From Kineobactrum sediminis (lineage in GTDB: Bacteria > Pseudomonadota > Gammaproteobacteria > Pseudomonadales > Halieaceae), in NCBI RefSeq assembly GCF_002868715.1, contig NZ_PKLZ01000007.1:248001-312000 (forward strand): a DNA stretch of 64,000 bases. The letters run 5' to 3'. The translations under genes and the position numbers were made by a program. Under the pieces are notes generated by a model. It had not been told where the DNA came from and did no database searches. It saw only the letters and a program-made list of their open reading frames with translations. Of this stretch, positions 17,220-46,403 are shown in pieces; positions within the stretch are counted from its first letter, which is position 1; every line of letters starts with the position of its first letter.

Positions 17220-20200
17220 ATGTCCAGCCCCACGGCGACAACCATGCCGCGCACCATCCCGGCAATCAGTTATCCCCCGGACTTGCCGGTGGTGCAACGG
17301 CGGGAGGATATTGCCCGCGCGATCAATGACCACCAGGTGGTGATCATTGCCGGCGAGACCGGGTCCGGCAAAACCACCCAGATACCCAAAATCTGCCTGC
17401 AGCTGGGGCGCGGTCGCGAGGGCCGTATCGGCCACACCCAGCCCCGGCGGCTGGCCGCGCGCTCGGTGGCGCAGCGTATCGCCGATGAACTTAAAACCCC
17501 GCTGGGTGAGGTGGTGGGCTATCAGGTACGCTTTACCGACCAGGTCTCGGATGCCTCCGCCATCAAAGTGATGACCGACGGCATCCTGCTGGCGGAGATT
17601 CGCCACGACCGGTTGTTGAGCCAGTACGACACGCTGATCATTGATGAAGCTCACGAGCGCAGTCTCAATATAGATTTTCTGCTCGGCTATTTGCGCCAGT
17701 TACTGCCGAAACGACCGGACCTGAAGCTGATTATTACCTCGGCGACCATCGATGTGGAACGATTCGCAGCACACTTTGGCGGTGCGCCGATTATCGAGGT
17801 CTCGGGCCGCAGCTACCCGGTGGAAACCGTTTATATCGACCCGGCAGAGGATCGCGACCTCGGGCTGCAGGCGCAGATTGTTGATCTGGTCGGCTCGATT
17901 GAAAGCGGCAGTTTTGGTGAGCGCGGCGACATTCTGGTGTTCCTGCCCGGTGAGCGCGATATCCGCGAACTGGCGCGGGAACTGCGGGGCCTGGAGCGGC
18001 TGGAAGTGCTGCCGTTGTACGCGCGACTTACCCGCCAGGAACAGGACCGGGTATTTGACTTGTCCCGGCGGCGGCAGCTGCGGGTTGTGCTGGCCACCAA
18101 CGTGGCGGAGACCTCGCTGACCGTACCCGGTATTCGTTATGTGATTGACCCGGGCGAGGCTCGCATCAGCCGCTACAGCTTTCGCACCAAGGTTCAGCGC
18201 CTGCCCGTCGAGTCGATTTCCAGGGCCAGTGCCAACCAGCGCCAGGGGCGCTGTGGGCGAGTGGCCCCGGGGGTCTGTATCCGCCTGTACACCGAGGAAG
18301 ATTTTCTGGCCCGGCCAGAGTTCACCGATCCTGAAATCCTGCGCACCAACCTGGCCGCCGTGATTCTGCAGATGCTGCAGCTGGGTCTCGGCGAAGTGCA
18401 GCGTTTTCCTTTTATAAACCCGCCGGATCCGCGGATGGTGCGCGATGGCTACAAACTACTGGAAGAGCTGGGCGCGGTTACCCGCCGGGGCCAGCTGACC
18501 AGTATTGGCAAGCGCATGGCACGGCTGCCGGTAGATCCGCGCCTGGCGCGTATGGTGTTGGCCGCACAGCAGCTATCCTGCCTGGACGAAGTGCTGGTGA
18601 TCGCTGCAGCACTTGCAATGCAGGATCCCCGGGAGCGCCCTGCGGACAAACAGCAACAGGCTGACCAGATGCATGCCCGGTTTCGCGATCCGCGCTCCGA
18701 TTTCATGTCCTGGCTGGCCTTGTGGCGCTATTACGAAGAACAACGCCAGGCGCTGAGCCAGGGCCAGTTGCGCAAACTGTGTCAGCGCGAATTCCTGTCC
18801 TTCTTGCGGATGCGGGAGTGGCGCGACCTGCATGCGCAGCTGCGCATCGGGTGTCGCCAGCTGGGCCTGCATCCGGCGGCTGAACTGGCGATAGTGGAGG
18901 AAGAGCCTTACGAGGCTATCCATCGCGCCTTACTGGCTGGCCTCTTGTCCAATATCGCCCAGCACCAGGAGGGCCGCGATTACCTGGGCAGTCGCAATCG
19001 CAAACTGCAGATATTTCCGGGTTCGGCGCTGGGTCGTCAGCGACCCAAGTGGCTGGTGGCTGCGGAGGTGGTGGAAACCTCACGCATTTTTGCCCGGGTA
19101 GTCGGCACAATCGATCCCCTGTGGATCCTTGACACAAATCCGGACCTGCTCAAGTTCCAGTATCATGAACCGCGCTGGGAACCTCGGCAGGGGCGGGTGA
19201 TGGCCTCGGAACGGGTGACGCTGTACGGTCTCACCGTGGTTGACAAGCGGCCGGTACATTACGGCCCGATAAAGCCCGCGGAGGCCAGGGAACTGTTGAT
19301 CAGGGAAGCACTGATCGCCGGACGATGCCCACGGCCGCCGGCTTTCCTGAAGCACAACCTGCGCCAGCTGCGTGCACTGGAAGACCTTGAGGCGCGAGCA
19401 CGGCGACGCGACCTTCTGGCCGATGAACAGGTTTTGTTCGATTTTTATGATGAGCGCCTGCCCGGGGATATCACTACCGCTGATCGCTTGCGGGCGTGGC
19501 TGAAAACAGCGCCCGATGCAGACCACAGCCTGCGAGTGCCGCGGGAGCTGCTGCTGGCCCGGGATCCCGGGGCGGAACTGGGCCAGCAGTTTCCCGACCG
19601 GCTGGACTGGAACGATATCAGCTTCAAGCTCGGGTACCAGTTTGAGCCGGGGCAGGTGGCGGACGGCGTCTCGGTGACCGTGCCGGTAGGCCTGCTCAAT
19701 CGGGTGCCACGGTTTCGTTTTGACTGGCTGGTACCCGGGCTGCTGCGAGAAAAGTGTATTGCGCTGGTAAAGGCCCTACCCAAAGACAAGCGCAAGCAAC
19801 TGGTGCCGGTTCCCGATTATGTTGATCGTGCCCTGTCGACACTGCAAGCCGGCGATGATGACCTGTACGCGGTCCTGGCAGAAGCGTTGTCGCGGCTTGG
19901 AAACACCTCTGTCGCTACGAGTGACTGGGATCTGGCCAGGCTTGACCCGTTTTACCACATGAATATCCGTGTGGTGGATGCCAATGGCAAGTTGTTGGCC
20001 CAGGGAAGGGATCTGGCGCAGCTGGTGGCCCGATTTCGCAGTGACACCCAGCAGACCATCGCCACGGTTTCCGAGCACTCTCTTGCGCGCACAGGTCTCA
20101 CAGCCTGGGACCTGGGTTCCCTCCCGCAGGAATGGCGATTCCGTCAGGCGGGTGTGGATATCATCGCCTGGCCGGCGATGGTGGATCAGGGTGAGTCGGT

Positions 20201-20987
20201 CGCGATTGAACTGTTCGATTACCCTGCCCAGGCGCAGTTGCAACACCGCCTGGGCGTCTTGCGCCTGCTCCGCCTGCAGCAGCGCCAACAGGTCAAATTC
20301 CTGCGCAAGCAGCTTCTGCAGGGCAATGAAACCAGCCTGTTGCTGGCCGCTTGTGGCCTCGAACGCTTACCGCTGGTTGAGGACCTGATTGATAACGCGT
20401 GGTTACAGGCTTCGGCACTGGAAGAGAACCTGCCCTGGGACGAGGTCGCATTTGGAGCATTACTCGCCCGCAGCAATCGGGTGATTGAGCACGCCAACGA
20501 ACAGGAGGCAAATTTGCTCAATGCGCTGCGGCCGCTGGCGGCGGTGCACAAGTTGCTGGCCCGCTATACTGACAAGTCCTGGTCGACCTCGGTTGCAGAT
20601 GTCCGGCGTCAGTTGGGCGAGCTTTGGCAGCCCGGATTCCAGCGCGACACCCCAGCCGCCTGGCTCGCGCAATATCCACGCTACATGAAAGCGCTTCGCG
20701 TGCGGCTGGAACGCCTGAACGGCCAACTGGAGCGCGACAGGGCACACTGTGCAACGCTGGAGGGACTACTGACACCATTGGCGCAAGCCGTTGCCGCGCA
20801 GCCGGGGTTGTTACTGCTGTGTCCGGCCGCCCGGCAGTATCGGTGGATGATTGAGGAGTTTCGGGTATCACTGTTTGCGCAGCAGCTGGGTACCCGGATT
20901 CCGGTGTCCGTGAAACGGCTGCAGGCCCAGTGGCAAGAGGTGCGCACCTGGCTGGACAGCCAGCCAGAACAGGGACTGGGCGCATAA
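17220..20987 (+). CDS. hrpA: ATP-dependent RNA helicase HrpA (DEAH box)
   Basis: 1255 residues, close to the family length of about 1280-1300. Walker A GETGSGKTT (45-53), the DEAH box in LIIDEAHERS, motif III SAT, and the helicase C motifs (ATNVAETSLTVPGI, QRxGRxGR) are all readable, followed by the HA2/OB region and the long C-terminal DUF3418 region characteristic of HrpA. It is a 3'-5' RNA helicase implicated in resolving stalled ribosomes and mRNA processing in E. coli. It starts just after and divergent from maoC and ends 145 bases before the RiPP operon. Confidence 0.96.
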   Translation: MSSPTATTMPRTIPAISYPPDLPVVQRREDIARAINDHQVVIIAGETGSGKTTQIPKICLQLGRGREGRIGHTQPRRLAARSVAQRIADELKTPLGEVVGYQVRFTDQVSDASAIKVMTDGILLAEIRHDRLLSQYDTLIIDEAHERSLNIDFLLGYLRQLLPKRPDLKLIITSATIDVERFAAHFGGAPIIEVSGRSYPVETVYIDPAEDRDLGLQAQIVDLVGSIESGSFGERGDILVFLPGERDIRELARELRGLERLEVLPLYARLTRQEQDRVFDLSRRRQLRVVLATNVAETSLTVPGIRYVIDPGEARISRYSFRTKVQRLPVESISRASANQRQGRCGRVAPGVCIRLYTEEDFLARPEFTDPEILRTNLAAVILQMLQLGLGEVQRFPFINPPDPRMVRDGYKLLEELGAVTRRGQLTSIGKRMARLPVDPRLARMVLAAQQLSCLDEVLVIAAALAMQDPRERPADKQQQADQMHARFRDPRSDFMSWLALWRYYEEQRQALSQGQLRKLCQREFLSFLRMREWRDLHAQLRIGCRQLGLHPAAELAIVEEEPYEAIHRALLAGLLSNIAQHQEGRDYLGSRNRKLQIFPGSALGRQRPKWLVAAEVVETSRIFARVVGTIDPLWILDTNPDLLKFQYHEPRWEPRQGRVMASERVTLYGLTVVDKRPVHYGPIKPAEARELLIREALIAGRCPRPPAFLKHNLRQLRALEDLEARARRRDLLADEQVLFDFYDERLPGDITTADRLRAWLKTAPDADHSLRVPRELLLARDPGAELGQQFPDRLDWNDISFKLGYQFEPGQVADGVSVTVPVGLLNRVPRFRFDWLVPGLLREKCIALVKALPKDKRKQLVPVPDYVDRALSTLQAGDDDLYAVLAEALSRLGNTSVATSDWDLARLDPFYHMNIRVVDANGKLLAQGRDLAQLVARFRSDTQQTIATVSEHSLARTGLTAWDLGSLPQEWRFRQAGVDIIAWPAMVDQGESVAIELFDYPAQAQLQHRLGVLRLLRLQQRQQVKFLRKQLLQGNETSLLLAACGLERLPLVEDLIDNAWLQASALEENLPWDEVAFGALLARSNRVIEHANEQEANLLNALRPLAAVHKLLARYTDKSWSTSVADVRRQLGELWQPGFQRDTPAAWLAQYPRYMKALRVRLERLNGQLERDRAHCATLEGLLTPLAQAVAAQPGLLLLCPAARQYRWMIEEFRVSLFAQQLGTRIPVSVKRLQAQWQEVRTWLDSQPEQGLGA

Positions 20988-21132
20988 AAGTGTGAATATT
21001 TACCACATCGTGGGCACGCAAAGGGAAACCACAGCGTTAATACTGGGTCTTAGTACGTGAGCTGAGGGCCGTTGAAGTGTTGGCGGCCCGCTTGTATCGT
21101 GCGTTAAACCAACCAACAAAAGGACAACCATC
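20988..21132 (+). promoter_or_regulatory. leader and probable promoter of the EGKCG RiPP operon
   Basis: A candidate sigma-70 promoter is present: TTGAAG at 21072-21077, a 17-base spacer, TATCGT at 21095-21100. An AAAGGAC ribosome site follows about ten bases before the ATG at 21133. Similar peptide operons elsewhere answer to metal stress through ECF sigma factors or other metal regulators, but I see no anti-sigma or sigma gene next to this operon and no certain metal box. Confidence 0.4.
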
Positions 21133-21432
21133 ATGGCTCAATCAAAGAAACCACTTATCGTCGCACTCAGCGCAGCCTTTCTCGCCAGCAGCGTTGTGCC
21201 AATGGCGACCGCAGAGGTAAACCCGTTTTCCGCTCATTCGCTGAACGGCGGCTATGACCTTGCCAATTACGACAAGCACAAAGAAGGTAAATGTGGCGAA
21301 GGTAAATGCGGCGAGAAAGATGCCGAAGGCAAGTGCGGTGAGAAAGACGCCGAAGGCAAATGTGGTGGCGAAAAGACAGCTGAGAAAGACAGTGAAGGCA
21401 AGTGCGGCGAAGGCAAGTGCGGCGGTGCATAA
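21133..21432 (+). CDS. hvfA: EGKCG-repeat RiPP precursor (HvfA/bufferin-type, DUF2282-like low-complexity peptide)
   Basis: A 99-residue precursor with a Sec signal peptide (MAQSKKPLIVALSAAFLASS..., cleavage probably after ATA at 27), a short conserved linker (NPFSAHSLNGGY) and a C-terminal core. The core holds six EGKCG motifs, with Cys at 54, 59, 68, 77, 91 and 96; these are its only cysteines. In Haemophilus HvfA and in bufferins, MNIO enzymes convert such Cys residues to oxazolone-thioamide or thiooxazole groups that bind copper. The stop overlaps the start of the MNIO gene (TAATG). The product is expected to be exported and to chelate metal in the periplasm or outside; that is inference from the family. 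Confidence 0.88.
   Translation: MAQSKKPLIVALSAAFLASSVVPMATAEVNPFSAHSLNGGYDLANYDKHKEGKCGEGKCGEKDAEGKCGEKDAEGKCGGEKTAEKDSEGKCGEGKCGGA
21283..21423 (+). repeat. tandem EGKCG-coding repeat
   Basis: In-frame imperfect tandem repeats encode six EGKCG units, in the order double, single, single, double, separated by EKDA/EKDS spacers. The nucleotide copies differ mainly at third positions, so the array is old or under selection at protein level. Confidence 0.85.
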
Positions 21433-22292
21433 TGCCTGAGCTCTCATCCGGACCCGCAGGCGCGGGTCTTGGTCTACGGCGGGCCCTTCTGGGCCCGTTG
21501 CTCGAAGCTGGGCCGGGAGCGGCGGATTTCCTGGAAGTCGCACCTGAAAACTGGATTAATGTCGGGGGACGCTACGGGCGACAACTTCGCCAACTGGCGG
21601 AGCGTTATCCGGTCGTATTCCATGGCCTGTCCCTGGATATCGGTGGCCCCGACGCCATCGATGACGCTCTGGTGCACGCGATACGCGAGCTGATGAACGA
21701 GTTGGGGGCGACAGTGTATACCGAGCACCTGACCTATTGTGCCGCCGAAGGCCACCTTTACGATTTGCTGCCCATTCCCTTTACCGAGGAGGCCGTGGCA
21801 CACGTAAGTGCACGAATCGGCAAGGTACAGGATATTATCGGAGCTCCTATCGCACTGGAAAATGCATCCTATTACGCACAGCCCGATGCGGATATGAGCG
21901 AAGCCGAGTTTATCAACGCGGTACTGGACACTTCCGGTTGTGACCTGCTGCTCGATGTCAACAATATCTATGTGAACAGCATCAATCACAATTACGACCC
22001 TGTGGGGTTCCTGCGCTCACTGCCCCTGGCGAAAGTTCGCTATATTCATGTCGCAGGCCATTTCGACGAGGCGCCTGACCTCAAGGTGGATACCCATGGT
22101 GCCGACGTAATCGACCCGGTATGGTCACTGCTGGAGGAGGCCTATCGCCTTCTTGGCCCTGTGCCAACGCTGCTCGAACGCGATTTCAATATTCCGCCAC
22201 TGCCTGTGCTGCTGCAGGAAGTTGCCCACATCCGGCACTTGCAGGATGGGGTCGCAACGGGCACGCACCAGCGTGTGGGTAGCCGTGGCTGA
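21432..22292 (+). CDS. hvfB: DUF692 multinuclear non-heme iron oxidase (MNIO), HvfB/BufB-type peptide-modifying enzyme
   Basis: A 286-residue TIM-barrel protein of the DUF692 family. The iron-ligand pattern is complete: VFHGLSLDIGG, YTEHLTYC, PIALENASYY, LLLDVNNIYVN, YIHVAGH, DTHGADV and LLERDFNIP give the His/Glu/Asp/Asn set that holds two or three irons. These enzymes oxidise Cys in a partner peptide; the substrate here is the upstream EGKCG protein. The ATG overlaps the precursor stop by one base (TAATG), so the two are translationally coupled. Ten in-frame codons before it belong to the precursor gene in another frame and are excluded. Confidence 0.93.
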   Translation: MPELSSGPAGAGLGLRRALLGPLLEAGPGAADFLEVAPENWINVGGRYGRQLRQLAERYPVVFHGLSLDIGGPDAIDDALVHAIRELMNELGATVYTEHLTYCAAEGHLYDLLPIPFTEEAVAHVSARIGKVQDIIGAPIALENASYYAQPDADMSEAEFINAVLDTSGCDLLLDVNNIYVNSINHNYDPVGFLRSLPLAKVRYIHVAGHFDEAPDLKVDTHGADVIDPVWSLLEEAYRLLGPVPTLLERDFNIPPLPVLLQEVAHIRHLQDGVATGTHQRVGSRG

Positions 22293-23025
22293 TCTGCGTA
22301 CAAGCCAGCTGACAATGGCCCGGTACCTGCGTAACCCGGAAACCTCGCCTGCACCCGAGGGTGTTGAACCGCGACGCCTGCAGATTTACCAGGATCTTAT
22401 ATACAACAATATAGAGGGGTTTATCAGCAGCGGTTTCCCGGTACTGCGCAGTCTTTACAGCAAGCCTGCCTGGCATGCCCTGGTTCGTCAATTCATCGAC
22501 GATCATCGCTGCCATAGCCCCTATTTTCTCGAAATCAGCCAGGAGTTCCTGCAGTTCTTGCTGGAGGGACACAATCCAGGCCCCGACGATCCACCTTTTA
22601 TTACTGAGTTGGCGCACTATGAGTGGGTAGAACTGGCGCTCATGGTGTCCTCTGTGGAAATACCCAAAGCGATATCCGACGATGCGGATCCGCTGACAGC
22701 GATTCCGCGGCTTTCGCCTTTAGCCTGGGTTTTAGCCTATCAGTTTCCGGTGCAGATGATCGGGCCGGATTATCAGCCCGCCGAACCGGAAGCCCCTGTA
22801 TACCTGGTGGTTTACCGGAACAGGGACGATGCCGTGCAGTTTATGGCGCTGAACGCAGCCACTGCGCGCCTGCTTGAGCTTACACGCGAGAACGCGACCG
22901 TCCCGGGTGCTGAACTGCTGGTCCAGTTGGCCACCGAACTGGGCGTGGATGCCGCCGTTGTCCAGCAATTTGGCGCCCGGCAGCTTACTGAATTTGTGGA
23001 CTCCTCGATATTGACACTCTCCTGA
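22285..23025 (+). CDS. hvfC: DUF2063 (putative DNA-binding domain) protein, HvfC/BufC-type MNIO partner
   Basis: About 246 residues from a GTG at 22285 (VADLRTSQLTMARYLRNPE...), overlapping the MNIO gene by 8 bases. The N-terminal DUF2063 domain shows RRLQIYQDLIYNNIEGFISSGFPVL, the family signature; the C-terminal half is the substrate-recognition part of HvfC/BufC proteins. It forms a complex with the MNIO enzyme and presents the precursor. Despite the family name it is not expected to bind DNA. The fourth gene often found in such operons (DoxX-like hvfD) is absent here; the next gene is mlaA. A start at an upstream GTG (22273) is possible. Confidence 0.88.
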   Translation: MADLRTSQLTMARYLRNPETSPAPEGVEPRRLQIYQDLIYNNIEGFISSGFPVLRSLYSKPAWHALVRQFIDDHRCHSPYFLEISQEFLQFLLEGHNPGPDDPPFITELAHYEWVELALMVSSVEIPKAISDDADPLTAIPRLSPLAWVLAYQFPVQMIGPDYQPAEPEAPVYLVVYRNRDDAVQFMALNAATARLLELTRENATVPGAELLVQLATELGVDAAVVQQFGARQLTEFVDSSILTLS

Positions 23026-23103
23026 CCGAAACTACCCGGGTGGGTTGCTACCGGTCAGGCAGAGGCGTAATATTCGGGCCAATTTTATGGATGCCATTTT
23101 GAT

Positions 23104-23823
23104 ATGTCCCCCCGGCGCACTATTATACTGCTGTTGTGTCTCCTCCTCACGGTCCCGGCAATTGCCCGGGCCGAAGCCGAGGCGGACCCGTTCGAGAGTA
23201 TTAATCGCCCCTTGTTTGTATTCAATGACAAAGTTGACGAGTATCTGTTGCGCCCTACTGCGAGAGGCTATCGCTGGGTTATGCCGGACCCTGCGGAGCA
23301 GGGCGTCACCAACTTTTTCAGCAACTTGCGTGACGTCAATGCGGCCGTTAATGGGGTTCTACAGGGTCGCCCAGCCAACGCCGCACGCGCCAGTGGTCGT
23401 GTCCTGTTGAATTCAACCATTGGTATTCTGGGTCTGTTTGACGTTGCCTCGCGCATGGGCCTTACCCCTTATCGTACCGACTTTGGACATACGCTGGCCG
23501 TGTGGGGATTTCCCCAGGGCCCGTACCTCGTGGTTCCTTTGCTGGGACCAAAGACGGTCCGCAGTGGTACCGGTACGATCTTTGACGGTTATACGTCGGT
23601 AGAATCGACCATTGACGATGTGCGGCTGCGTAATTCAACGCGCGGGCTGGATCTGGTGAGTACCCGCGCGCGATTGCTCAAGGCGGATGACCTGATATCC
23701 GGGGATCGCTATATTTTTGTACGTGATGCCTACCTGCAAAGCCGCAGGGCCCTGGTGAGTGAGGGCGAATTGAAGGATGACTTTTCCGATTTCGGAGACA
23801 ACGGCTGGGACGAGGAGTTTTGA
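23104..23823 (+). CDS. mlaA: MlaA-family (VacJ) outer-membrane lipid asymmetry protein
   Basis: A 239-residue protein with the MlaA core: DPFESINRPLFVFND, an amphipathic helix region, GRVLLNSTIGILGLFDVA, TDFGHTLAVWGFPQGPYLVVPLLGP, and a C-terminal YIFVRDAYLQSRR. In E. coli MlaA removes misplaced phospholipids from the outer leaflet of the outer membrane together with a porin. Unlike E. coli MlaA, the signal peptide ends in AIARAEAEA and has no lipobox Cys; the only early Cys (12) is inside the hydrophobic core. It may be cleaved by signal peptidase I and held by its own membrane donut. The other mla genes are not in the window. Confidence 0.9.
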   Translation: MSPRRTIILLLCLLLTVPAIARAEAEADPFESINRPLFVFNDKVDEYLLRPTARGYRWVMPDPAEQGVTNFFSNLRDVNAAVNGVLQGRPANAARASGRVLLNSTIGILGLFDVASRMGLTPYRTDFGHTLAVWGFPQGPYLVVPLLGPKTVRSGTGTIFDGYTSVESTIDDVRLRNSTRGLDLVSTRARLLKADDLISGDRYIFVRDAYLQSRRALVSEGELKDDFSDFGDNGWDEEF

Positions 23824-23947: not shown

Positions 23948-25132
23948 ATGATGGTTGCCAACGGCTATGTGCTGGTCATCGACGACGATGTCGCCCGAGC
24001 GACGGAACTGGCGGATACGATTTCCGCAGCCGGTTATCGCACAACGGTCTTCACTGATGTCGCCGCTGCGTTTGATTTTCTGTCCGCGGACAGCGATATC
24101 GACGTTATCCTGTGTGAACTTGATCTTGAATCGGTGTCCTGGGGAGATGCACGCAAGGCTCTGAAGGAACTGGACCTGCAAATCCCCGCGATTGTGCTCA
24201 GTGATACCGCTGATGTAGACAAGATGATGACAGCGCTGCGTCTCGGCGCCAGCGACTTTTTTGTGCGCCCCATTGAAGACTGGGACGCCCTGCGTAAATC
24301 AATTGGCCGCTGTGTGCGCCAACGGGTGCTTCGGCGTGAACTGCAGGAGTATCGGCAGCGGCTGGAGCTTGCCAATATAGAGTTACGGGGTACGGTAAAG
24401 GTACTTGAACAGGACCAGCAGGCAGGTCGCCAGGTGCAGCTGCGGATGCTGCCGACCAGCCCGATGGTGCTGGGAGAATATGTGTTCAGCCACACGGTTA
24501 TCCCCTCGCTGTACCTGAGCGGGGATTTCACCGATTATTTTACCGTTGGCGACCGGTATGTAGCGTTTTTCATGGCGGATGTCTCCGGGCACGGCAGTTC
24601 ATCCGCATTCACCACAGTGCTGCTGAAAAACCTGTTTGCCCGCAAGCGCTCGGACTACCTGCGCCACAATGATGACACCATTCTCAGTCCGGTAGCGATG
24701 CTCAAACATGCCAACAACGAGCTTCTGGAACTGGCTGTCGGCAAGCACGCCACCATGGTGGTGGGATTGCTGGACACAGCCGATAATACCTTGCGCTATA
24801 GTGTTGCGGGGCATTTACCGCAACCGGTGCTGGTTTCCCGGGAAGGCTGTCGTTATCTACGGGGGGAGGGTTCAGCAGTAGGTATCATGGCGGATGTCGG
24901 CTACGAAGAGCATTTGATTGACCTGCCGGACAGCTTCATGATGGCGCTGTTTTCGGATGGCATTCTGGAAATACTGCCCCCCCGGAATTTGATTGAAAAA
25001 GAGAAGTACTTCCTCAAGGTCTTTGAGGAATCGGCTGAGTCGCCGGAAGATATTGTGACTCGGCTCGGTCTCAATCGTGTAGAGACTGCTCCGGATGATA
25101 TCGCTGCGCTGTTTATCAGCAAACGGAACTGA
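23948..25132 (+). CDS. receiver-PP2C (SpoIIE/RsbU-type) serine phosphatase
   Basis: A 394-residue two-domain protein. Residues about 7-120 form a response-regulator receiver with acidic pocket D12/D13, but the usual phospho-acceptor Asp at the end of strand 3 is Glu57 (VILCEL). A helical linker (about 125-165) leads to a PP2C/SpoIIE phosphatase domain with MADVSGHG, FSDGILE and DDIAALF metal-site motifs. Such proteins dephosphorylate a STAS anti-anti-sigma factor; that partner is the next gene, one base downstream. It resembles HsbR or RsbU but lacks the extra anti-sigma kinase domain of HsbR. It probably controls a sigma or anti-sigma pathway in motility, biofilm or stress response. Confidence 0.9.
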   Translation: MMVANGYVLVIDDDVARATELADTISAAGYRTTVFTDVAAAFDFLSADSDIDVILCELDLESVSWGDARKALKELDLQIPAIVLSDTADVDKMMTALRLGASDFFVRPIEDWDALRKSIGRCVRQRVLRRELQEYRQRLELANIELRGTVKVLEQDQQAGRQVQLRMLPTSPMVLGEYVFSHTVIPSLYLSGDFTDYFTVGDRYVAFFMADVSGHGSSSAFTTVLLKNLFARKRSDYLRHNDDTILSPVAMLKHANNELLELAVGKHATMVVGLLDTADNTLRYSVAGHLPQPVLVSREGCRYLRGEGSAVGIMADVGYEEHLIDLPDSFMMALFSDGILEILPPRNLIEKEKYFLKVFEESAESPEDIVTRLGLNRVETAPDDIAALFISKRN

Positions 25133-25133
25133 A

Positions 25134-25616
25134 ATGGAAGAAGGTCAAATTCTTGCTGCCTGCCAGGATGGAGCATACGTTATACGCCTCACCGGTGATG
25201 TGCGCCTGACCCTGTGTACCACTATTGATGATTACTTTCAGCGAATGCTAGACAGCCCCGATTTCGCCAGCGTCTGGGTAGATCTGTGTGATGTTCAGGG
25301 TATAGACAGTACGACCCTGGGCCTGCTGGCCAAGCTCGCTCTTGAAGTACGCGAGCGCTACGGGTTCATGCCCGCCATTTATTCCTGCGATCCTGGTATT
25401 ACCCGCTTGATCAGGAGCATGGGTTTCCAGCGTCTGTTCGAGATCCATGAAGACGTGTGCAACCAACTGGCTGACATACACTCAATTCCCGTGGTCGAGG
25501 GCAGTGAGGCTGCCGTGCGGGAGAAAGTGATTGAAGCCCACCGGGTACTCATGGGTATTTCCGATGAAAACCGGGCCCGATTCAAGGATCTGATGGTGGC
25601 GCTGGAACACGGCTGA
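25134..25616 (+). CDS. STAS-domain anti-anti-sigma factor
   Basis: 160 residues: a STAS domain (about 1-105) with the phosphorylatable serine motif DSTTLG (Ser59 or Thr60), equivalent to the DSSGLG-type site of SpoIIAA/RsbV, and a C-terminal helical extension of about 50 residues as in HsbA-type proteins. It is the expected substrate of the PP2C domain encoded one base upstream; when dephosphorylated it should bind an anti-sigma factor, which is not encoded in this window. Confidence 0.88.
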   Translation: MEEGQILAACQDGAYVIRLTGDVRLTLCTTIDDYFQRMLDSPDFASVWVDLCDVQGIDSTTLGLLAKLALEVRERYGFMPAIYSCDPGITRLIRSMGFQRLFEIHEDVCNQLADIHSIPVVEGSEAAVREKVIEAHRVLMGISDENRARFKDLMVALEHG

Positions 25617-33851: not shown

Positions 33852-35518
33852 GCGGACTCCTGTGGGCCGGGCATACTGCGGGACATGAGGATAACAGGCA
33901 ATAGACCGATCAGCACGATCGCCAGTGCCGGCAGCGCCGCATCGGCCAGCCGTTCATCCGAGGCCAGCTCGTGTGCTCGTACAGCCAGGGTATTGAAGTT
34001 GAATGGGCGCAGGATGAGTGTTGTCGGTAATTCCTTGAGGACATCCACAAATACCAGCAACAGTGCGGTTAATACACTGCCACGCAACATGGGCAGGTGA
34101 ATCCGGCGCAGTATACTTAATGGGCTGTGGCCAAGGGATCGCGCGGATTCATCAATGCCGGGACGAATGCGCGCCAGTCCTGATTCGACGGTTTGCAGCG
34201 AGACTGCAAGAAAGCGCACAACATAGGCAAAAACCAGGGCAATCAGCGTACCACTCAATAATAACCCCGAGGATATGCCCAGGGTTTCCCGCAGCAGGCT
34301 GTCCACCGTGTTATCGAACCAGGCGAAAGGTATGAGAACACCTACCGCTATCACCGTTCCCGGTACGGCATAGCCCATCCCGGCAACGCGCACTGCAGCC
34401 GTTTCCGCAGGCCCCGGATATAAACGCTTGCCGTAGCCGAACAGTAGCGCCAGTAGCAGGCAGCAAAAGGAAGCCAGCGCCGCCAGCATAAAACTGTTGC
34501 TCACCAGTTGCAGGAAACGGACATCGAAAATCTGCAGGTAATTAGCTGCGCCCCACACCGCCAGCTGGGCGGCCGGGAACAGGAATCCGGCCAGCAGAAT
34601 CATCAGCGCCACGCTGAAACCCAGCGCGGCACGCCAGCCGCGCAGGGAAATACGGGTGGGAAAGTCACGCACCGCGGTCTTGTGAAAACGGAGTCGTTGT
34701 CGGGAGCGTCGCTCCAGAATCAACAGGGTGAACACGAATAACAGCAGAAAAGCCGCCAGCTGCGCTGCTGTCTGCAACTCACCGAGCCCGTACCAGGTCC
34801 GGAAGATGCCGGTGGTGAAGGTGCTCACGCCGAAATAGGCCACCGTCCCGTAATCAGCCAGGGTCTCCATCAGCGCCAGGCTGACACCGGCCGCAATCGC
34901 CGGCCGGGCCAAGGGCAGGCCGACCAGGAAAAGGGTTTGCCACGGTGTTTTGCCGAGATTGCGGCTGGCCTCAAGCACCGCGGTGGACTGCTCCAGAAAT
35001 GCAACCCGCACCAGCAGATACACATAGGGGTAAAGCACCAGGGAGAGCATACAAATGGCGCCGCCCAGTGACCTGATCTCCGGGAACCAGTAGTCGCCAA
35101 AGCCCCAGCCAAAGGTGTCTCGCAACAGGGTTTGTACGGGCCCCGCATAATCGAGCATACCGGTATAGGTATAGGCCATGATATAAGCCGGCATGGCCAT
35201 GGGCAGCAACAGCGCCCAGCTGAAGAAACGGCGGCCGGGAAATTCGCACATGGCGGTCAGCCACGCAGCGCTGACCCCCAGGCTGAAAGTGCCCAGCCCC
35301 ACGCCCAGCATCAGCACTATGGAATTGAACACATAGTCGCTGATTACCGTACTCAACAGGTGTTGCCAGGCAGGGCTGTAGCCCGCAAGCAGGCTGGCAA
35401 CCACTACCAGCACGGGTATGGCTATGAGTAGCGTTCCCAGTAATATGCCAGTGCGCCAGAGTCGCGCTGGCCAGGGACTGGGCTCCGGGTAGGTAAACGC
35501 AGGGGTGCCTACTTCCAA
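33848..35518 (-). CDS. fbpB: ferric iron ABC transporter permease (fused double BPD_transp_1)
   Basis: 556 residues with about twelve membrane segments in two repeats, each with an EAA-type loop (EASRNLGKTPWQTLFLVGLPLARP and DESARSLGHSPLSILRRIHLPML), the fused permease layout of FbpB/HitB. The only upstream start in a sensible place is a TTG at 35518 that overlaps the binding-protein gene by ten bases, which implies translational coupling. Confidence 0.93.
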   Translation of the reverse strand: MEVGTPAFTYPEPSPWPARLWRTGILLGTLLIAIPVLVVVASLLAGYSPAWQHLLSTVISDYVFNSIVLMLGVGLGTFSLGVSAAWLTAMCEFPGRRFFSWALLLPMAMPAYIMAYTYTGMLDYAGPVQTLLRDTFGWGFGDYWFPEIRSLGGAICMLSLVLYPYVYLLVRVAFLEQSTAVLEASRNLGKTPWQTLFLVGLPLARPAIAAGVSLALMETLADYGTVAYFGVSTFTTGIFRTWYGLGELQTAAQLAAFLLLFVFTLLILERRSRQRLRFHKTAVRDFPTRISLRGWRAALGFSVALMILLAGFLFPAAQLAVWGAANYLQIFDVRFLQLVSNSFMLAALASFCCLLLALLFGYGKRLYPGPAETAAVRVAGMGYAVPGTVIAVGVLIPFAWFDNTVDSLLRETLGISSGLLLSGTLIALVFAYVVRFLAVSLQTVESGLARIRPGIDESARSLGHSPLSILRRIHLPMLRGSVLTALLLVFVDVLKELPTTLILRPFNFNTLAVRAHELASDERLADAALPALAIVLIGLLPVILMSRSMPGPQESA

Positions 35519-36546
35519 TTCGCTCTGTCCATAGCCATTACTGCGGCGGCGTTCAGGCGACCCAGTTCACTGACATTGATCATATCGGCCTTGAAGGACC
35601 CCCAGGACAGCAACAGTTCGCTGGGCGCAACGCCGGGCCGCACGGGATATTCATTATTGCTTTCGGCATACCAGCGCTGGCTCTCCTCCCGGAGCAGGAA
35701 CTCAATCAGACGACGGGCCTGCTCGGGGTGCTTCGCTGCCTGTGTCACGCCGGCACCACTAATGTTCACGTGGGTGCCGCGGCCTTCCTGGTTTGGCCAG
35801 AACAGCTCGACCCTGGTTGCGGCGGCACGCTCCTCGGGCTCTGGCGATTGCAGCATTGCTCCCAGGTAATAGCTGTTAACCAGTGCCACATCACACTGAC
35901 CGGCAGCTACCGCCTTGATCTGGTCGCGGTCACCACCCTGGGGGGGCCGGGCAAAGTTGCCGACAAACCCCTGCAACCATTGATCAGTGGCCTCGACACC
36001 TTCGCTGGCCAGCATTCCGGCAACCAGTGACTGGTTATAAATATTGGCCGAGGAACGCACGCAGATCCGGCCCTCCCACTGTGGTTCGGCCAGTGCCTGA
36101 TAGCTGCTTAGTTGATCCGGATTTACCCGGTCCCTGGCATAGACAATGACCCGCGCTCGCAAGGACAGGCCATACCAGTAGCCTTCGGGGCTGCGCAAAT
36201 GTTCGGGTACGGCGGCCTCGAGTTCGGCAGAGATTGCCGGCTGCAGCACCCCGGCCTCCTGTGCCCGGTACAGGTTGCCCGCATCGGATGTCAGCAACAG
36301 GTCAGCGGGTGAATTGCGACCCTCGCTGCTCAGTCGCGCAAGCAGGGCGTCACCGGCACCAGTCACCAGGTTTACCTCAATACCGGTTTCGCTGGTAAAA
36401 CGGTCCAGCAACGGCTTTATCAGCGACTCCTGGCGCGCGGAATAGATATTAACGGTCTCGCTCTTGGAACAGGCAACAAGGGCGGGCAGCAGCATCGCCA
36501 ACAGGGTCAGGATGCGGATCATGGGCCAGTGGCGAATACGATTCAA
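35509..36546 (-). CDS. fbpA: ferric iron-binding lipoprotein of the ABC importer
   Basis: 345 residues. A lipoprotein signal (MLLPALVACS, Cys about residue 27) is followed by a type-2 periplasmic binding fold: VNIYSARQESLIKPLLDRF, LLLTSDAGNLYRA, and the paired tyrosines in LVNSYYLGAM that coordinate Fe(III) in FbpA/FutA proteins. The TTG at 36546 has a GAGAGGA ribosome site about nine bases upstream; the internal ATG at 36522 has none. First gene of the fbpABC-type operon, behind a Fur-like promoter. Confidence 0.92.
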   Translation of the reverse strand: MNRIRHWPMIRILTLLAMLLPALVACSKSETVNIYSARQESLIKPLLDRFTSETGIEVNLVTGAGDALLARLSSEGRNSPADLLLTSDAGNLYRAQEAGVLQPAISAELEAAVPEHLRSPEGYWYGLSLRARVIVYARDRVNPDQLSSYQALAEPQWEGRICVRSSANIYNQSLVAGMLASEGVEATDQWLQGFVGNFARPPQGGDRDQIKAVAAGQCDVALVNSYYLGAMLQSPEPEERAAATRVELFWPNQEGRGTHVNISGAGVTQAAKHPEQARRLIEFLLREESQRWYAESNNEYPVRPGVAPSELLLSWGSFKADMINVSELGRLNAAAVMAMDRANWK

Positions 36547-41158: not shown

Positions 41159-42847
41159 CTACATCAGGTAGTAGAACACCACATACATCATCAGCAGTAG
41201 CGCTATCCACAGCGCCGTGGTGCCAATTTCCCAGGAGCGGCCCAGGGGGCCATGGGATCCCATGGTGTTGCGTATGGAGTTACCGGCGCTGCCCACCAGG
41301 GATTGAAGCCGCTGTTGCCCGGCGCTTATCAGCGGCCGGCTTAGCCTTGCGCTGATACGGGCCAGGGCGGGCAACCCGCGCCGCCACAGCCAGTCGACGT
41401 CCAGGGAGATGGTGCGTGTGCGTTGCATCCACGGCAACAGCAGGAAGAAGGCCAGTCCCGAGAACAGCAACAGCTGCAAGTACATCAGTACCTTGCCCAT
41501 CTTGTAGGGTACGTAGTCCACTGCATAGGGGAGCAGCGGGTAAAGCAGTTCCGGAAATATGCCGAGGAGAATACACAGGCCGGCAAAGAACACCATGGCG
41601 ATGGTCATATTCCAGGGCGCGTCCTTGGGCCGCAGACCGGAATCCTTCTGGAAGAAAACAAACCACGGAAACTTGATACCGGCGTGCAGGAATACCCCGG
41701 CAGAGGCCGCCGCCAGCAGGAAATAAACCGCCACCAGGCTCTCGTCCATGGCCGCTTGTGAAATCATGGTTTTGGTCGTGAAACCGGAGGTCAGCGGAAA
41801 GCTGGAGATGGCGAGGGCACCGATCACCCCGCACACCATGGTTACCGGCATGGTCCGGAACAGGCCACCCACGTCGGTGCACAGGGTTTTGCCGGTGCGC
41901 ATCACTACTACGCCCGCACTCATGAACAACAGCGCTTTGTAAATGATGTGGGCGAAAGCGTGTGCCGCCGCCCCGTTAATCGCCATCTCGGTACCGATGC
42001 CAACCGCCACCACCATGAAGCCCACTTGGTTGACAATGGAAAATGCCAGGATACGGCGGATGTCGTTTTCAAGAAGGGCGTAGATAATCCCGTAGAACAC
42101 CATGAACAGGCCCACGCCGATCAGCACCGGTTCACCCGGAAACAGCAGAATCAGCGCCAGGATAGCGGTCTTGGTAGTGAAGGCGGATAAAAACACCGAA
42201 CCACTGGGGCTGGCGGTAGGGTAGGCGTCTGACAACCAGGCAGATACCGGGGGCGCAGCGGCGTTAATCAGGATGCCGATCAGAATCATCCAGGTACTGA
42301 AGTCGGTGGCCAGCAGGGGACGAATATCCAGTGAGCCGGTGTTGACCATGAGGCCCTCAATACCCACCTTGAGCACGACGCCACCCAGCAGGTGCATGAT
42401 GGCGTAACGGATACCGGCTGCCCGGGCCGCTTCGGTGCCTCCGCACCACACGACAACAGTAGAAAACAGCGCCATCAATTCCCAGTACACAAAAAGAGTC
42501 AGCAGGTCACCCGCAAAACACACGCCAATGGCGCCCGCCGCATAGAATTGTGCGGCGACCAGCTCCGTGCGTCGTGCGGTGTTAAACGCAAACACCGCCC
42601 CGGTGGCCGCCATAATGGCAAAAATCGTCGCAAACAGGCGCCGTACCGGGCTGCCCTCAACCAGCTCCAGTGGATACCCAAGGAAGGCGCCGCGCAGGAC
42701 CACCCCGTCGGGTATCTGCCAGATCATGTACAGGCAGATCAATGGCGCGGTGATTACCACCGCAGCGCGCAGGCCCTTCGAGCTGATCAGGAAGGTAAGA
42801 AGGGCGCCGGCAATCAGGGCCAGGGCGGGGGGCAACATCTCAAACAT
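41159..42847 (-). CDS. Mrp-type cation/proton antiporter D-like subunit (third paralogue)
   Basis: 562 residues with about 14-16 membrane segments of the NuoL/M/N-MrpA/D superfamily. The trans-membrane Glu in FVYWELMALFS and the Lys of the STKT-like SAFTTKTAI segment are present, as are the discontinuous-helix residues. A C-terminal extension of roughly 100 residues with one more helix goes beyond normal MrpD length. Last gene of the antiporter operon; it overlaps the small membrane protein gene by eight bases. Confidence 0.9.
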   Translation of the reverse strand: MFEMLPPALALIAGALLTFLISSKGLRAAVVITAPLICLYMIWQIPDGVVLRGAFLGYPLELVEGSPVRRLFATIFAIMAATGAVFAFNTARRTELVAAQFYAAGAIGVCFAGDLLTLFVYWELMALFSTVVVWCGGTEAARAAGIRYAIMHLLGGVVLKVGIEGLMVNTGSLDIRPLLATDFSTWMILIGILINAAAPPVSAWLSDAYPTASPSGSVFLSAFTTKTAILALILLFPGEPVLIGVGLFMVFYGIIYALLENDIRRILAFSIVNQVGFMVVAVGIGTEMAINGAAAHAFAHIIYKALLFMSAGVVVMRTGKTLCTDVGGLFRTMPVTMVCGVIGALAISSFPLTSGFTTKTMISQAAMDESLVAVYFLLAAASAGVFLHAGIKFPWFVFFQKDSGLRPKDAPWNMTIAMVFFAGLCILLGIFPELLYPLLPYAVDYVPYKMGKVLMYLQLLLFSGLAFFLLLPWMQRTRTISLDVDWLWRRGLPALARISARLSRPLISAGQQRLQSLVGSAGNSIRNTMGSHGPLGRSWEIGTTALWIALLLMMYVVFYYLM

Positions 42848-43088
42848 CGTAGTAATCTTCCGGCCGTTTGAGCAGCTTGCCGAGCAGTTTGGCGGCGAAG
42901 ACCATTAACACGCAGCTGAAAAAACCAAATGCGGCACCAAAACCAAACCAGCCATCGACGCCGAAGTGGCCCTTGATGGGGATAAGCCACTGCAGGGCTA
43001 CGGTCAAGGCCAGTAAGATGCTGCCAATCCACCATAACCGGCGGATGGTTGCCGGGCGAGTCAGCCAGTGGTTATCCGGTGTGGTCAT
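42840..43088 (-). CDS. small membrane protein of the antiporter operon
   Basis: 82 residues with two membrane segments (about 20-36 and 46-68) joined by a loop HFGVDGWFGFGAAFG and a basic C-terminal end. The ATG overlaps the D-like gene upstream by 4 bases, and the stop overlaps the next D-like gene by eight, so it is firmly embedded in the operon. I do not recognise it as MrpE, F or G; it may be an accessory subunit. Confidence 0.83.
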   Translation of the reverse strand: MTTPDNHWLTRPATIRRLWWIGSILLALTVALQWLIPIKGHFGVDGWFGFGAAFGFFSCVLMVFAAKLLGKLLKRPEDYYDV

Positions 43089-44551
43089 AGCGGCAGGCTC
43101 TCCACAAGTTGGCCTTCAAGGTCCAGCAGTGGCTGGTTGAAGAAAAAGAACAGGATAGTGAGACCCGCGGTCACGCTCAGGGCAAGCAGAATGGCTCCGG
43201 GTGCCTCGCCATGATCCATGTCGACGCCTGTTGCCGGAGGACTGAGCCAGGCGAAATAGATAATCGGCAAAAAGTACATGGCATTGAGGGCGGTGCTGGC
43301 AATAATGGTAAAAATGGCCAGGTAGTTTTCGGCCTGGAAAGCCCCCGCCAGAATAAACCACTTGGACACGAAACCCGCGGTAGGGGGCACCCCGATCATG
43401 CTCAGCGCGCCGATGGTGAACGCCGCCATGGTAATGGGCATGCGCCGGCCTATTCCCGCCAGCTGCCACAGCTCTGTCTTGTGGGAGGCGGTGTAGATAG
43501 CCCCGGCCGCGAAGAACAGGGTGATTTTACCAAAGGCATGGGCCGCAATATGCACTGCGGCGCCAATCTCGGCCAGTGGCTTGAGAATCACCGTGGCCAT
43601 GATCACATAGGACAACTGCGCGATGGTGGAGTAGGCCAGCATGCGCTTGAGATTGGTCTGGTAGAGTGCCACCACACTCGCCGTGATAATGGTGAACGCC
43701 GCCATGTACTGCAGCCACTGTGCGCTGGGCTGGCTGAACAGGAAATCCACGCCAAAGATGTAAATGATGATCTTGGTAACACTGAACACACCGGCCTTGA
43801 CCACGGCCACCGCGTGCAACAGGGCGCTGACGGGTGTTGGTGCCACCATGGCCGCCGGCAGCCAGCGATGCATCGGCATCACCGCGGCCTTGCCGATGCC
43901 GAACACAAACAGGCCCAGCAGCAGGCCGACGGCGGCACCTTCCAGTTTGCCTTCAATAATGCCGCCCACGGTGAAATCGGTGGTCCCGGCAATCACATAG
44001 GTCCAGATGATGGCCGGCAGCAGCAAGCCAATGGAAGTGGCCAACAGCACCCCCAGGTAGATCCGTGCGGAGGCGATGGTTTTGGCATCGCCCTTGTGGG
44101 CCACCAGCGGGTAAGTAGAGAGGGTGAGAATTTCATAAAACAGAAACAGGGTGAACAGGTTGTCGGCGAGGGCAATGCCCATGGCGGCGGCGATGGCCAG
44201 TGCAAAACAGACATAAAAACGGGTCTGGTTTTTTTCCCTATTGCCTCGCATATAGCCGATGGAATAAATCGTGTTGATGATCCACAGGAACGACGCGATG
44301 CAGGCAAACATCATCCCCAGTGGCTCCAGCGACAGGGCCAGCGACAAACCCGGCAAAGGTTCCGACAGGGTGATCTGGGGCCGTGCGCCATCACTGATGG
44401 CGGGAAACCAGGAAAACACGAGGATGGCCAGGGACACCGCGGTCACCAGGCTCACCGCCTCCCGAATGTTGGGCCAGCGTCCGCTAAAGGCGATGACTAT
44501 TGCGCCCAGCAGAGGTAACAGCAACATTAAAGGCAGGGTATATTCAGGCAT
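43085..44551 (-). CDS. Mrp-type cation/proton antiporter D-like subunit (second paralogue)
   Basis: 488 residues, about 14 membrane segments, ion-translocating Glu in LFYEILTLSTYPLV and the conserved Lys in AVVKAGVFS. Start at ATG 44551, which shares one base with the preceding stop (TGATG). Of the three D-type genes this looks closest in length to standard MrpD. Confidence 0.92.
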   Translation of the reverse strand: MPEYTLPLMLLLPLLGAIVIAFSGRWPNIREAVSLVTAVSLAILVFSWFPAISDGARPQITLSEPLPGLSLALSLEPLGMMFACIASFLWIINTIYSIGYMRGNREKNQTRFYVCFALAIAAAMGIALADNLFTLFLFYEILTLSTYPLVAHKGDAKTIASARIYLGVLLATSIGLLLPAIIWTYVIAGTTDFTVGGIIEGKLEGAAVGLLLGLFVFGIGKAAVMPMHRWLPAAMVAPTPVSALLHAVAVVKAGVFSVTKIIIYIFGVDFLFSQPSAQWLQYMAAFTIITASVVALYQTNLKRMLAYSTIAQLSYVIMATVILKPLAEIGAAVHIAAHAFGKITLFFAAGAIYTASHKTELWQLAGIGRRMPITMAAFTIGALSMIGVPPTAGFVSKWFILAGAFQAENYLAIFTIIASTALNAMYFLPIIYFAWLSPPATGVDMDHGEAPGAILLALSVTAGLTILFFFFNQPLLDLEGQLVESLPL

Positions 44552-46038
44552 CAAAACAGGCCTCCAAGCAGTGTTTCAGTGCCACTGCGGGCCAGGGCCA
44601 GGGGCAACTGCGGGAACAGGCCAAAGTAGATGTTCGCCAGCGCCGCAAACCAGATCAGGCAACGCAGGGGCCGGCTGACCTCCATCGGTACAACCTCGCC
44701 GCCGGGAGGCTCACTGTAATAAGCCAGTTCCACGAATCGCCACAAGTAGACAACCGCCATCAGTGAACTGATGACAATGGCCGCAACGAGCGCCGCGCCC
44801 CAGCCATCCCAGCCAATTACCGCAACGACCAGGTACCACTTGCTGATGAAACCTGCGGTACCGGGCACACCGACCAGGCTCAGCCCCGCCACCAGGAAGG
44901 CTGCCATCGTCCAGGGCATGCGTTTACCGATACCCCTGAGGCTGTCCATTGAGGCACTGCCACTGGTTAATACAAACGCCACTACACACAGGAACAACGT
45001 GCCCTTGGCCAGGGCATGATTGAACATGTGCAGCAACGCTGCCATCAACCCGGCCTCGGAGGTAAGACCGGCGGCCAAGGCGATGTAGCCGATCTGGGCG
45101 ACGGAGGAAAAGGCCAGCATGGTCTTCAGGTTGGTCTGGAATATGGCAATCGCCGAAGCCAGCACAATACCCGCCAGCGCCAGCGGAATAATGAAAACCC
45201 CGAACAGGTCGGTATGCCCGGGCAGGTTGCCGTGAAACACTTCGAAATTGAAGCGTAACAGAACGTAGATCACCACCTTGGTAGAGCAGGCTGCGATGAA
45301 TACGGTTGCCGCATTGGGGGCGTAGGTATAGGCGCGGGGCAGCCAGACATGAAGGGGGAATATCGCCGCCTTGAGTGCCAGCCCGATGGTGATGAACCCC
45401 GCTGCAATGACGATGGGGCGGGTCTCTGTCACCTCATCCAGGCGCAGCGCGATATCGGCAAAGTTCAGGGTACCGGTCATCATGTACAGGAAGCCGACGC
45501 CGATCAGGTAAAACGTGGCGCCGATGGTGCCGATAATCAGGTATTTGAATACCGCAGACAGCGCCCGGCGATCGCGCCCCCCGGCAATCAGCACGTAGGT
45601 CGCGAGTGCGGAGATTTCCATGAAGACAAAGACATTGAAGGCGTCGCCGGCTACGGCAATGCCGCACAATCCGGCCATGGAAATCAGCCAGGCGCCATAG
45701 AACATGGGCGCGCGACGATTATCGATATCCTTGCGCAGGGACAGGCGCCCGCCGGCCAGCGCCAGGGAAGAAGCACCGGTAATCAACAGTAATACCAGGG
45801 CACTCAAGCCGTCCACGGTGAGGCCGATGCCCATCGGTGGCAGCCAGCCGCCGACGGCATAGTGTTGGGTGCCGGTCTCCAGCACCGTTGCAGTGAGCAG
45901 CATGGCCAGGCCCAGGGAACACAGGCTGGCCAGCAACGCCACCAGCCAGGCCAGGAAACCGGTGCGCAGCAGAATGACGAGGGGCGCCGTCAGCAGCGGC
46001 AGGGCAACCTGCAGGGCCGGAAGATGGTCAGCGAGCAT
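44551..46038 (-). CDS. mrpD: Mrp-type cation/proton antiporter D-like subunit (first paralogue)
   Basis: 495 residues with the proton-translocating superfamily features (VFMEISALATYVLI with the key Glu, KAAIFPLHVWLPRAY, CSTKVVIYVLLRF with the Lys). It follows MrpC directly, in the standard C-D order, with TGATG overlap at 46038; hence it is the best candidate for genuine MrpD. Confidence 0.92.
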   Translation of the reverse strand: MLADHLPALQVALPLLTAPLVILLRTGFLAWLVALLASLCSLGLAMLLTATVLETGTQHYAVGGWLPPMGIGLTVDGLSALVLLLITGASSLALAGGRLSLRKDIDNRRAPMFYGAWLISMAGLCGIAVAGDAFNVFVFMEISALATYVLIAGGRDRRALSAVFKYLIIGTIGATFYLIGVGFLYMMTGTLNFADIALRLDEVTETRPIVIAAGFITIGLALKAAIFPLHVWLPRAYTYAPNAATVFIAACSTKVVIYVLLRFNFEVFHGNLPGHTDLFGVFIIPLALAGIVLASAIAIFQTNLKTMLAFSSVAQIGYIALAAGLTSEAGLMAALLHMFNHALAKGTLFLCVVAFVLTSGSASMDSLRGIGKRMPWTMAAFLVAGLSLVGVPGTAGFISKWYLVVAVIGWDGWGAALVAAIVISSLMAVVYLWRFVELAYYSEPPGGEVVPMEVSRPLRCLIWFAALANIYFGLFPQLPLALARSGTETLLGGLF

Positions 46039-46397
46039 CACGCTTTACGATCCAGTGCCAGGATCTCGTCGTCCTCAATGGTGCCGTACTCTTCATAGAG
46101 ACGCACAACAATAGCCAGCCCGAGTGCGGTCGTGGAAATGCCAACCACAATCGCGGTGAGGATAAGTACCTGGGGCAGCGGATTGGAGAAAACCTGCCCG
46201 CTCACACCCGCCTGCACAATGGGTGCGGTACCGCCTTCAATCTTGCTCATGGTGATGAAAAACAGGAATACGGCCGACTGGAAAATAGCCAGTGCCATGA
46301 TTTTCTTGACCAGGTTGTGTTTGGTGATGAGCGCGTACAGACCGATCACCAACAGGATCGCGAATACCCAATAATTGAAAAGACCCAGGAATTTCAT
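46038..46397 (-). CDS. mrpC: Mrp antiporter subunit C (NuoK-like)
   Basis: 119 residues, three membrane segments, with HNLVKKIMALAIFQSAVFLFF and the TAIVVGISTTALGLAIVVRLYE helix typical of MnhC/MrpC. It begins six bases after the MnhB-type gene and overlaps the D gene by one base. Confidence 0.94.
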   Translation of the reverse strand: MKFLGLFNYWVFAILLVIGLYALITKHNLVKKIMALAIFQSAVFLFFITMSKIEGGTAPIVQAGVSGQVFSNPLPQVLILTAIVVGISTTALGLAIVVRLYEEYGTIEDDEILALDRKA

Positions 46398-46403
46398 GGC
46401 AAC

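Follow-up and report, generated by a model that had tools for sequence, protein, structure and literature searches.

A stretch of 64,000 nucleotides from Kineobactrum sediminis (contig NZ_PKLZ01000007.1, positions 248,001 to 312,000; hereafter the window) contains three overlapping genes for a precursor peptide with EGKCG repeats, an MNIO (DUF692) enzyme and a DUF2063 protein, the order of hvfABC operons for ribosomally synthesized and post-translationally modified peptides (RiPPs), with neither a DoxX-like gene (hvfX) nor a regulatory gene beside them. The question that this locus raises is whether so bare an operon makes a different product under different control, or whether its missing parts are encoded elsewhere. 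Our analysis makes it likely that this is an HvfABC captophorin operon forming one half of a split regulon controlled by an extracytoplasmic function (ECF) sigma factor, with HvfX encoded elsewhere; HvfX and a regulator would seem to be lacking because their genes are dispersed in the genome. Judged by sequence, this is an ordinary captophorin operon; captophorins are the 5-thiooxazole copper peptides, a class that owes its name to PMC13097082, where over 24,000 loci combining an MNIO with its partner are reported.

The coordinates (21133-23025; Table 1) bear out the arrangement given in the preliminary description of this DNA: the TAA of the precursor gene and the ATG of the MNIO gene have one base in common (TAATG), and the end of the MNIO gene (22292) overlaps the GTG start of the DUF2063 gene (22285) by 8 bases. 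The assignment to an HvfABC-type MNIO RiPP operon with six candidate cysteines likewise stands, as all three products exceed the cut-offs of their NCBIfam models. The precursor passes NF050137 (HvfA family, EGKCG; Table 1) and has no match in a Pfam search. Its six EGKCG motifs begin at residues 51, 56, 65, 74, 88 and 93, in the two outer doublets and two single units described earlier; 20,000 shuffles of its residues gave at most one EGKCG, in 46 of them. The MNIO scores 410.9 bits with NF003818 (HvfB; cut-off 360) and 335.8 bits with PF05114 (cut-off 25), PDB 3bww being the closest solved structure (E 1.4e-72), and does not reach the BufB model NF050167 (266.2 versus a cut-off of 310). The third product matches NF050145 (HvfC; 307.8 bits, cut-off 142), PF09836 (87.7) and PF22106 (102.5), with PDB 3dee as its closest solved structure (E 9.7e-14). 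Residues RR 16-17 and RDF 250-252 of the MNIO correspond approximately, matched by position only, to Arg15/Arg16 and Asp249/Phe250 of FonB, which are reported for Lys-Cys substrates (PMC13097082). The precursor brings its own Sec-type signal sequence, by inspection, which suggests a periplasmic product.

In order to place the operon among known systems we compared it with the studied relatives. The six motifs had been put forward as distinguishing; HvfA of Haemophilus, however, contains three AEGKCGEGKCG motifs with six modified cysteines (PMC13419390), and MmrA, encoded in the conserved ABC cluster mmrA-C of Microbulbifer, has five to eight cysteines, six in the studied strain (PMC12538549), so that neither six motifs nor an ABC operon without D is new. 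According to PMC12452194, EGKCG precursors range from 31 to 506 residues and the core genes occur 'in various combinations'. The modification of HvfA, first called oxazolone/thioamide, is now described as 5-thiooxazole (PMC13419390; PMC13097082). The Microbulbifer system resembles the operon in the window in consisting of ABC only, in its EGKCG repeats and six cysteines (studied strain) and in its position between hrpA and mlaA; it differs in the spacing of the motifs and in its upstream element (see below). A word search of the text of PMC12538549 finds neither 'DoxX' nor 'sigma'. The hvfABC-hvfX (oxazolin) operon of Haemophilus influenzae shares the HvfA family, HvfB, HvfC and six cysteines (PMC13419390, PMC7907618) as well as ECF control, there exerted from a separate locus (PMC7907618), but has hvfX inside the operon and three doublets in HvfA, whereas here hvfX is detached and the precursor stays under the equivalog cut-off. 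The fontiphorin operon fonABC of Fontimonas thermophila has a similar EGKCG core with an MNIO and a PME1 partner, and seven modified sites versus the six candidate cysteines here (PMC13097082). Bufferin 1 of Caulobacter, with sigmaF/NrsF, is alike in its MNIO and DUF2063 proteins, signal peptide and ECF control (PMC12452194, PMC3511200); its precursor is a DUF2282 protein, unlike the one here, and the Pfam and BufB results place the operon outside Buf1.

The position of the operon is conserved among relatives. Of 140 genomes surveyed, probably Halieaceae, 67 have an HvfB match at E 1e-40, and the named loci closest to that of the window include Halieaceae and Haliea records. The operon lies between an open reading frame that we take to be hrpA and the lipoprotein gene mlaA, and no DoxX or sigma gene is found between these two, judging by the list of open reading frames and a neighbourhood comparison. 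The same arrangement, hrpA-hvfB-hvfC-mlaA without DoxX, is present in 35 of 38 distinct Halieaceae-like loci, the remaining three missing one neighbour in the fetched stretch. Among all 107 distinct loci, as fetched, DoxX is absent from 50 that have both neighbours and from 22 that have at most one; it is present in 34 that have neither neighbour and in one, L055 from Ketobacter, where it lies in a single locus with hrpA, ABC and mlaA. Left out of these counts are L036-L038, which lie on the contigs of L018, L023 and L035, and also L001 and L006, which are the window itself. DoxX was searched for with the proteins of L002 and L003; an L004 reading frame served as a further query but is not taken for DoxX. 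Eight of nine Microbulbifer loci sit in the same slot, the ninth (L049) being truncated at a contig edge. The operon would thus have been kept vertically between hrpA and mlaA, and the absence of hvfD and of a regulator, which had been read as a possible sign of a different product, is the usual state of this slot and is accompanied by an ECF-like element at hvfA.

That absence holds at the locus and not in the genome. DoxX (PF07681) has four matches in the genome of the window, two of them strong, and both strong proteins exceed the HvfX model NF050144 (232.4 and 231.4, cut-off 80). One is encoded on contig C23 between genes that we take to be moeB and deaD. The other lies on contig C10 (locus L133) in the order ECF sigma factor, 81-residue zf-HC2 protein, second precursor, HvfX. 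The sigma factor is over the cut-offs of PF04542 and PF08281; the zf-HC2 protein scores 27.6 (cut-off 22.2), as well as 58 with NF052368 (cut-off 50), and its Cys4, His30, Cys34 and Cys37 are the ZAS positions given for the anti-sigma factor NMB2145 (PMC2893595). The second precursor (gene at L133:3849-4184) has 111 residues and seven EGKCG motifs and passes the equivalog model NF050188 (97.8, cut-off 95). Neisseria meningitidis similarly combines an ECF sigma factor (sigmaE) and the short ZAS anti-sigma NMB2145 with a DoxX-like gene, there in one operon (PMC2893595), whereas the C10 cluster is without MNIO and DUF2063 genes. Precursors of the Buf1 and Buf2 families, too, occur apart from MNIO genes (PMC12452194).

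Since the second cluster has no MNIO gene and the genome has a single PF05114 match in total, HvfBC of the window would have to mature the second precursor in trans as well, a service that we infer from this one MNIO. The same four genes occur, rearranged, in a genome of another genus (G017), whose one HvfB match lies elsewhere on the contig; G127 and G126 each have EGKCG matches on two contigs, with one HvfB match in the former and three in the latter, and in G077 the genes for sigma, anti-sigma, A, B, C and X form one cluster. We are evenly divided on whether these parts make up a dispersed captophorin regulon in the full sense, with hvfABC between hrpA and mlaA and hvfX between moeB and deaD sharing an ECF element, and with one HvfBC pair in this genome and in G017 maturing core and accessory precursors under different control. 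A cluster that has a sigma factor of its own but lacks an MNIO gene is a natural setting in which to ask whether a single HvfBC pair can act on several precursors. At L133:3807-3831, shortly 5' of the second precursor gene, an element-like GAAACT-N13-GTCAAT occurs; it was discounted as a match because only 13 bases precede GTC.

The proposed link between hvfABC and hvfX comes from the sequences upstream of the two. A promoter-like element, GAAAC(T/C)-N15-17-GTCNN(A/G), precedes hvfA in 35 of 36 Halieaceae-like loci, the window included, where shuffles lead one to expect 0.09. The set omits L014, in which the precursor was not recognised, and L029, at a contig edge; the sole miss, L045, reads GGAACC-N16-TTCATA by eye. 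A strict form, TGAAACTTN{14,16}GTCATA, has 16 matches in the 140 genomes and 10 with the pattern reversed, so that the weight rests on the placing of the matches and not on their number: 13 of the 16 lie just upstream of an MNIO match on the same contig and strand, a 14th at a contig end (G033:C268) is identical in its letters to one of the 13, and those sited elsewhere are G026:C41 and G136:C1:867895. A sister element, [ACG]AAAC[CT]T-N14-16-GTCNNA, lies upstream of detached hvfX in 18 of 24 loci (0.03 expected; the 24 include L155 and L201, which represent a single locus, and L170, truncated at the start). In a second set of 40 hvfX loci the element is present in 28, namely in 23 of 32 where the genome also has an HvfB match (0.04 expected) and in five of eight where it has none; G129 being common to both sets, 27 of 39 further loci carry it. 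The second set allowed any first base, the first A, C or G, the reading of second-cluster loci used a looser spacing, and the loci of the second set were picked after a pattern search had already shown matches in some of them. Together the sets cover 53 of the 65 genomes with HvfB and HvfX matches. Counted over the 140 genomes, the hvfX form matches 50 times versus 22 for the reversed pattern; 22 of the 50 lie at hvfX by position, and the other 28 are divided between genus g21 (19 matches; an HvfB match in 2 of its 57 genomes), G003 (two) and other genomes (seven). The copies in the genome of the window read GAAACC-N16-GTCTTA at hvfA and CAAACT-N16-GTCCTA at hvfX. In the main texts of a largely open literature we found no published account of an element common to hvfA and hvfX, nor of a sigma/EGKCG/HvfX cluster that lacks an MNIO.

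The element could instead be the site of a DNA-binding regulator: its letters differ consistently from those before rpoE. We regard this as unlikely, because the AAC-core and GTC-core boxes, separated by some 16 bases, have the 28-base geometry of most rpoE upstream elements, the hvfX copy stands at a steady distance (mostly beginning 54-60 bases before the approximate start in the second set), and hvf-type operons elsewhere are under ECF control (PMC7907618, PMC2893595). A sigma-70 scan of 20900-23300 gave three sites versus 1.8 expected, one of them at the mlaA start, with no plus-strand site upstream of hvfA and no terminator. A structured 5' leader, from the element to the start codon, was rejected: of 34 loci, 28 had folding z values relative to shuffles above -1.5 (-0.2 in the window), and the other six ranged from -1.7 to -3.0.

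Control in trans has a precedent in H. influenzae, where the DoxX (hvf) operon is regulated by RpoE2, whose gene adjoins msrAB and is accompanied by that of a 67-residue anti-sigma (PMC7907618). RpoE is a candidate, on sequence grounds, for the sigma factor of the hvf element; as a plain answer it was set aside, because the element in front of rpoE itself is different in both boxes. ECF genes neighbouring the hvf loci did not suffice to tie the hvf element to a sigma factor: near L036-L115, 13 open reading frames matched at E 1e-4, ten as response regulators and three as sigma-like proteins (L061, L080 and L081). We take it that, under stress to the envelope, from oxidants or from metals, a trans-acting sigma factor (RpoE, or an ECF factor of like specificity) would turn on hvfABC and hvfX together from their similar ECF-type elements. 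A cluster without hvfX or a sigma gene need not then mean a different product, as the parts could be dispersed with the promoter still common to them, and the common element provides a testable way into the role of HvfX, a DoxX-like protein called yet uncharacterised in PMC13419390 and not known to be an exporter, and into the signal for ABC-only captophorin operons.

Several observations weigh against such a split captophorin regulon. The rpoE upstream elements, compared in the 23 of 30 rpoE loci that could be located by a peptide anchor, share the geometry, but show a GGAAC form in 16 and the hvf form in none. The C10-type sigma factor was rejected as a family-wide regulator: at E 1e-18 it is found in 6 of 140 genomes (the match in G077, 3e-16, falls below that bar), too few for it to drive the element across the family. 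Outside the Halieaceae-like loci the hvfA element is present in 18 of 58 (0.15 expected), and in the genome of the window its loose form is not specific, with seven matches, one of them at hvfA, versus four for the reversed pattern. Co-occurrence of the genes was rejected as proof of linkage: 65 of the 140 genomes have both hvfB and hvfX, two hvfB alone, ten hvfX alone and 63 neither, a pattern for which lineage accounts because all 63 genomes without either belong to three genera. Moreover, hvfX is not tied to hvfABC, since it is present without an HvfB match in those ten genomes (G022, G034, G047, G116, G123, G124, G129, G131, G137 and G139, of which G034 and G129 are 71-74% complete) and the element is kept at hvfX in six of the nine tested (G047 within the first set, G123 outside the test); HvfX may therefore have a role of its own. 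With regard to the peptide, the precursor does not reach the HvfA equivalog NF050188 (58, cut-off 95), and its two single EGKCG units could stay unmodified, because a single-EGKCG fragment of FonA was left unmodified by FonBC in vitro (PMC13097082). Finally, MmrA-C went undetected in Microbulbifer whether or not copper was added, and the study is hesitant to ascribe protection to them (PMC12538549).

This last result bears on what the product does. By analogy with the studied relatives, HvfB and its RiPP recognition element (RRE) partner HvfC would convert EGKCG cysteines into 5-thiooxazoles, and the modified product would follow its Sec signal into the periplasm and bind Cu(I) there. The Microbulbifer product bulbicupramide, formed by loss of 4 H per cysteine, binds Cu(I), whereas its binding of Fe(III), Ni, Zn or Mn is not appreciable (PMC12538549). 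Copper buffering, as proposed earlier, may fairly be inferred from the relatives, although the Microbulbifer data weaken the case. A peptide for envelope thiol or oxidative stress, for example hypochlorite, with copper binding incidental, appears doubtful but deserves attention: in H. influenzae HOCl and H2O2 raise rpoE2 expression, and both msrAB and the operon of the DoxX-like gene are under RpoE2 control (PMC7907618), the hvfA element is ECF-like, and the Microbulbifer homologues escaped detection upon copper addition (PMC12538549). The metal selectivity of bulbicupramide argues against this reading, as does the Legionella GIG operon, for which DUF692, DUF2063 and DoxX are named in PMC5413113 and whose promoter responds to copper and gold, though its precursor may be of another type. 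It seems very improbable that the mature peptide is a chalkophore, cleaved and exported to acquire copper. Methanobactin has MNIO chemistry in common (PMC13419390), and whether EGKCG products remain whole is called unclear in PMC13097082; no protease, exporter or importer gene, however, lies between hrpA and mlaA, the signal sequence points to the periplasm, and bulbicupramide and related peptides were undetected in Microbulbifer extracts (PMC12538549). The failure to detect MmrA-C in proteomes (PMC12538549) would also fit an operon that is a silent relic in this organism, which we think hardly credible given the open frames, the retained promoter-like element and an HvfB identity of 60-78% in 62 of 71 among the matches listed (one of the 62 with an internal TAG, one of partial coverage). 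Of the eight Microbulbifer loci tested, one has the hvfA element (L057, with a 17-base spacer) and seven have none (L047, L048, L052, L056, L064, L072 and L078), which may relate to MmrA-C going undetected in culture.

Table 1. Features of the hvf operon and its surroundings in the window (position 1 is the first letter of the window)
Feature	Position	Strand	Basis or remark
hvfA-like precursor gene, 99 aa	21133..21432	+	ATG 21133, TAA 21430-21432; NF050137 46.5 bits, cut-off 19.5
Sec-type signal sequence, residues 1-27 of precursor	21133..21213	+	putative cleavage after ATA, by inspection
Precursor core with six EGKCG (doublet, single, single, doublet)	21283..21423	+	includes every Cys of the protein
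hvfB-like MNIO (DUF692) gene, 286 aa	21432..22292	+	ATG start; NF003818, PF05114, PDB 3bww
hvfC-like DUF2063/RRE partner gene, 246 aa	22285..23025	+	GTG start; NF050145, PF09836, PF22106, PDB 3dee
ECF-promoter-like element GAAACC-N16-GTCTTA	21025..21052	+	begins 108 bases 5' of hvfA start codon
hrpA-like helicase gene, conserved upstream neighbour, outside the pathway	17220..20987	+	open reading frame call
mlaA lipoprotein gene, conserved downstream neighbour	23104..23823	+	78-base gap after hvfC; PF04333 234.7 bits, cut-off 25; may or may not belong to the operon

The precursors vary considerably within the family. Segments similar to NPFSAHSLNGGYDLANY of the precursor in the window recur in many of those compared, and the number of EGKCG motifs in 37 Halieaceae-like precursors ranges from 0 to 10, with six in four of them, including that of the window. 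At least two EGSCG units, often between EGKCG doublets, occur in 14 of the 37 (L010, L011, L016, L018, L020, L021, L023-L025, L028 and L031-L034); FonBC tolerated Ala, Arg and Thr variants at position 3 of the motif (PMC13097082). The L027 precursor (G025:C1) has three EGKCG units, after which the frame runs into KASAAK-like repeats as if frameshifted within the repeats, its EGKCG matches falling in open frames of 50 and 128 aa. In L111 and L113 an EF-hand-like segment, recognised by inspection, lies between EGKCG blocks rather than at the C-terminus.

Downstream of mlaA, positions 23948-25616 encode a response regulator with a phosphatase-like part and a STAS-like protein, both named by inspection, and response-regulator-like reading frames are found 3' of mlaA in ten further loci, five of them from Microbulbifer. 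Farther along the window, positions 42001-48000 have an AT skew of 0.19-0.26, which exceeds that of most of the window; 34001-36000 also reaches 0.18.

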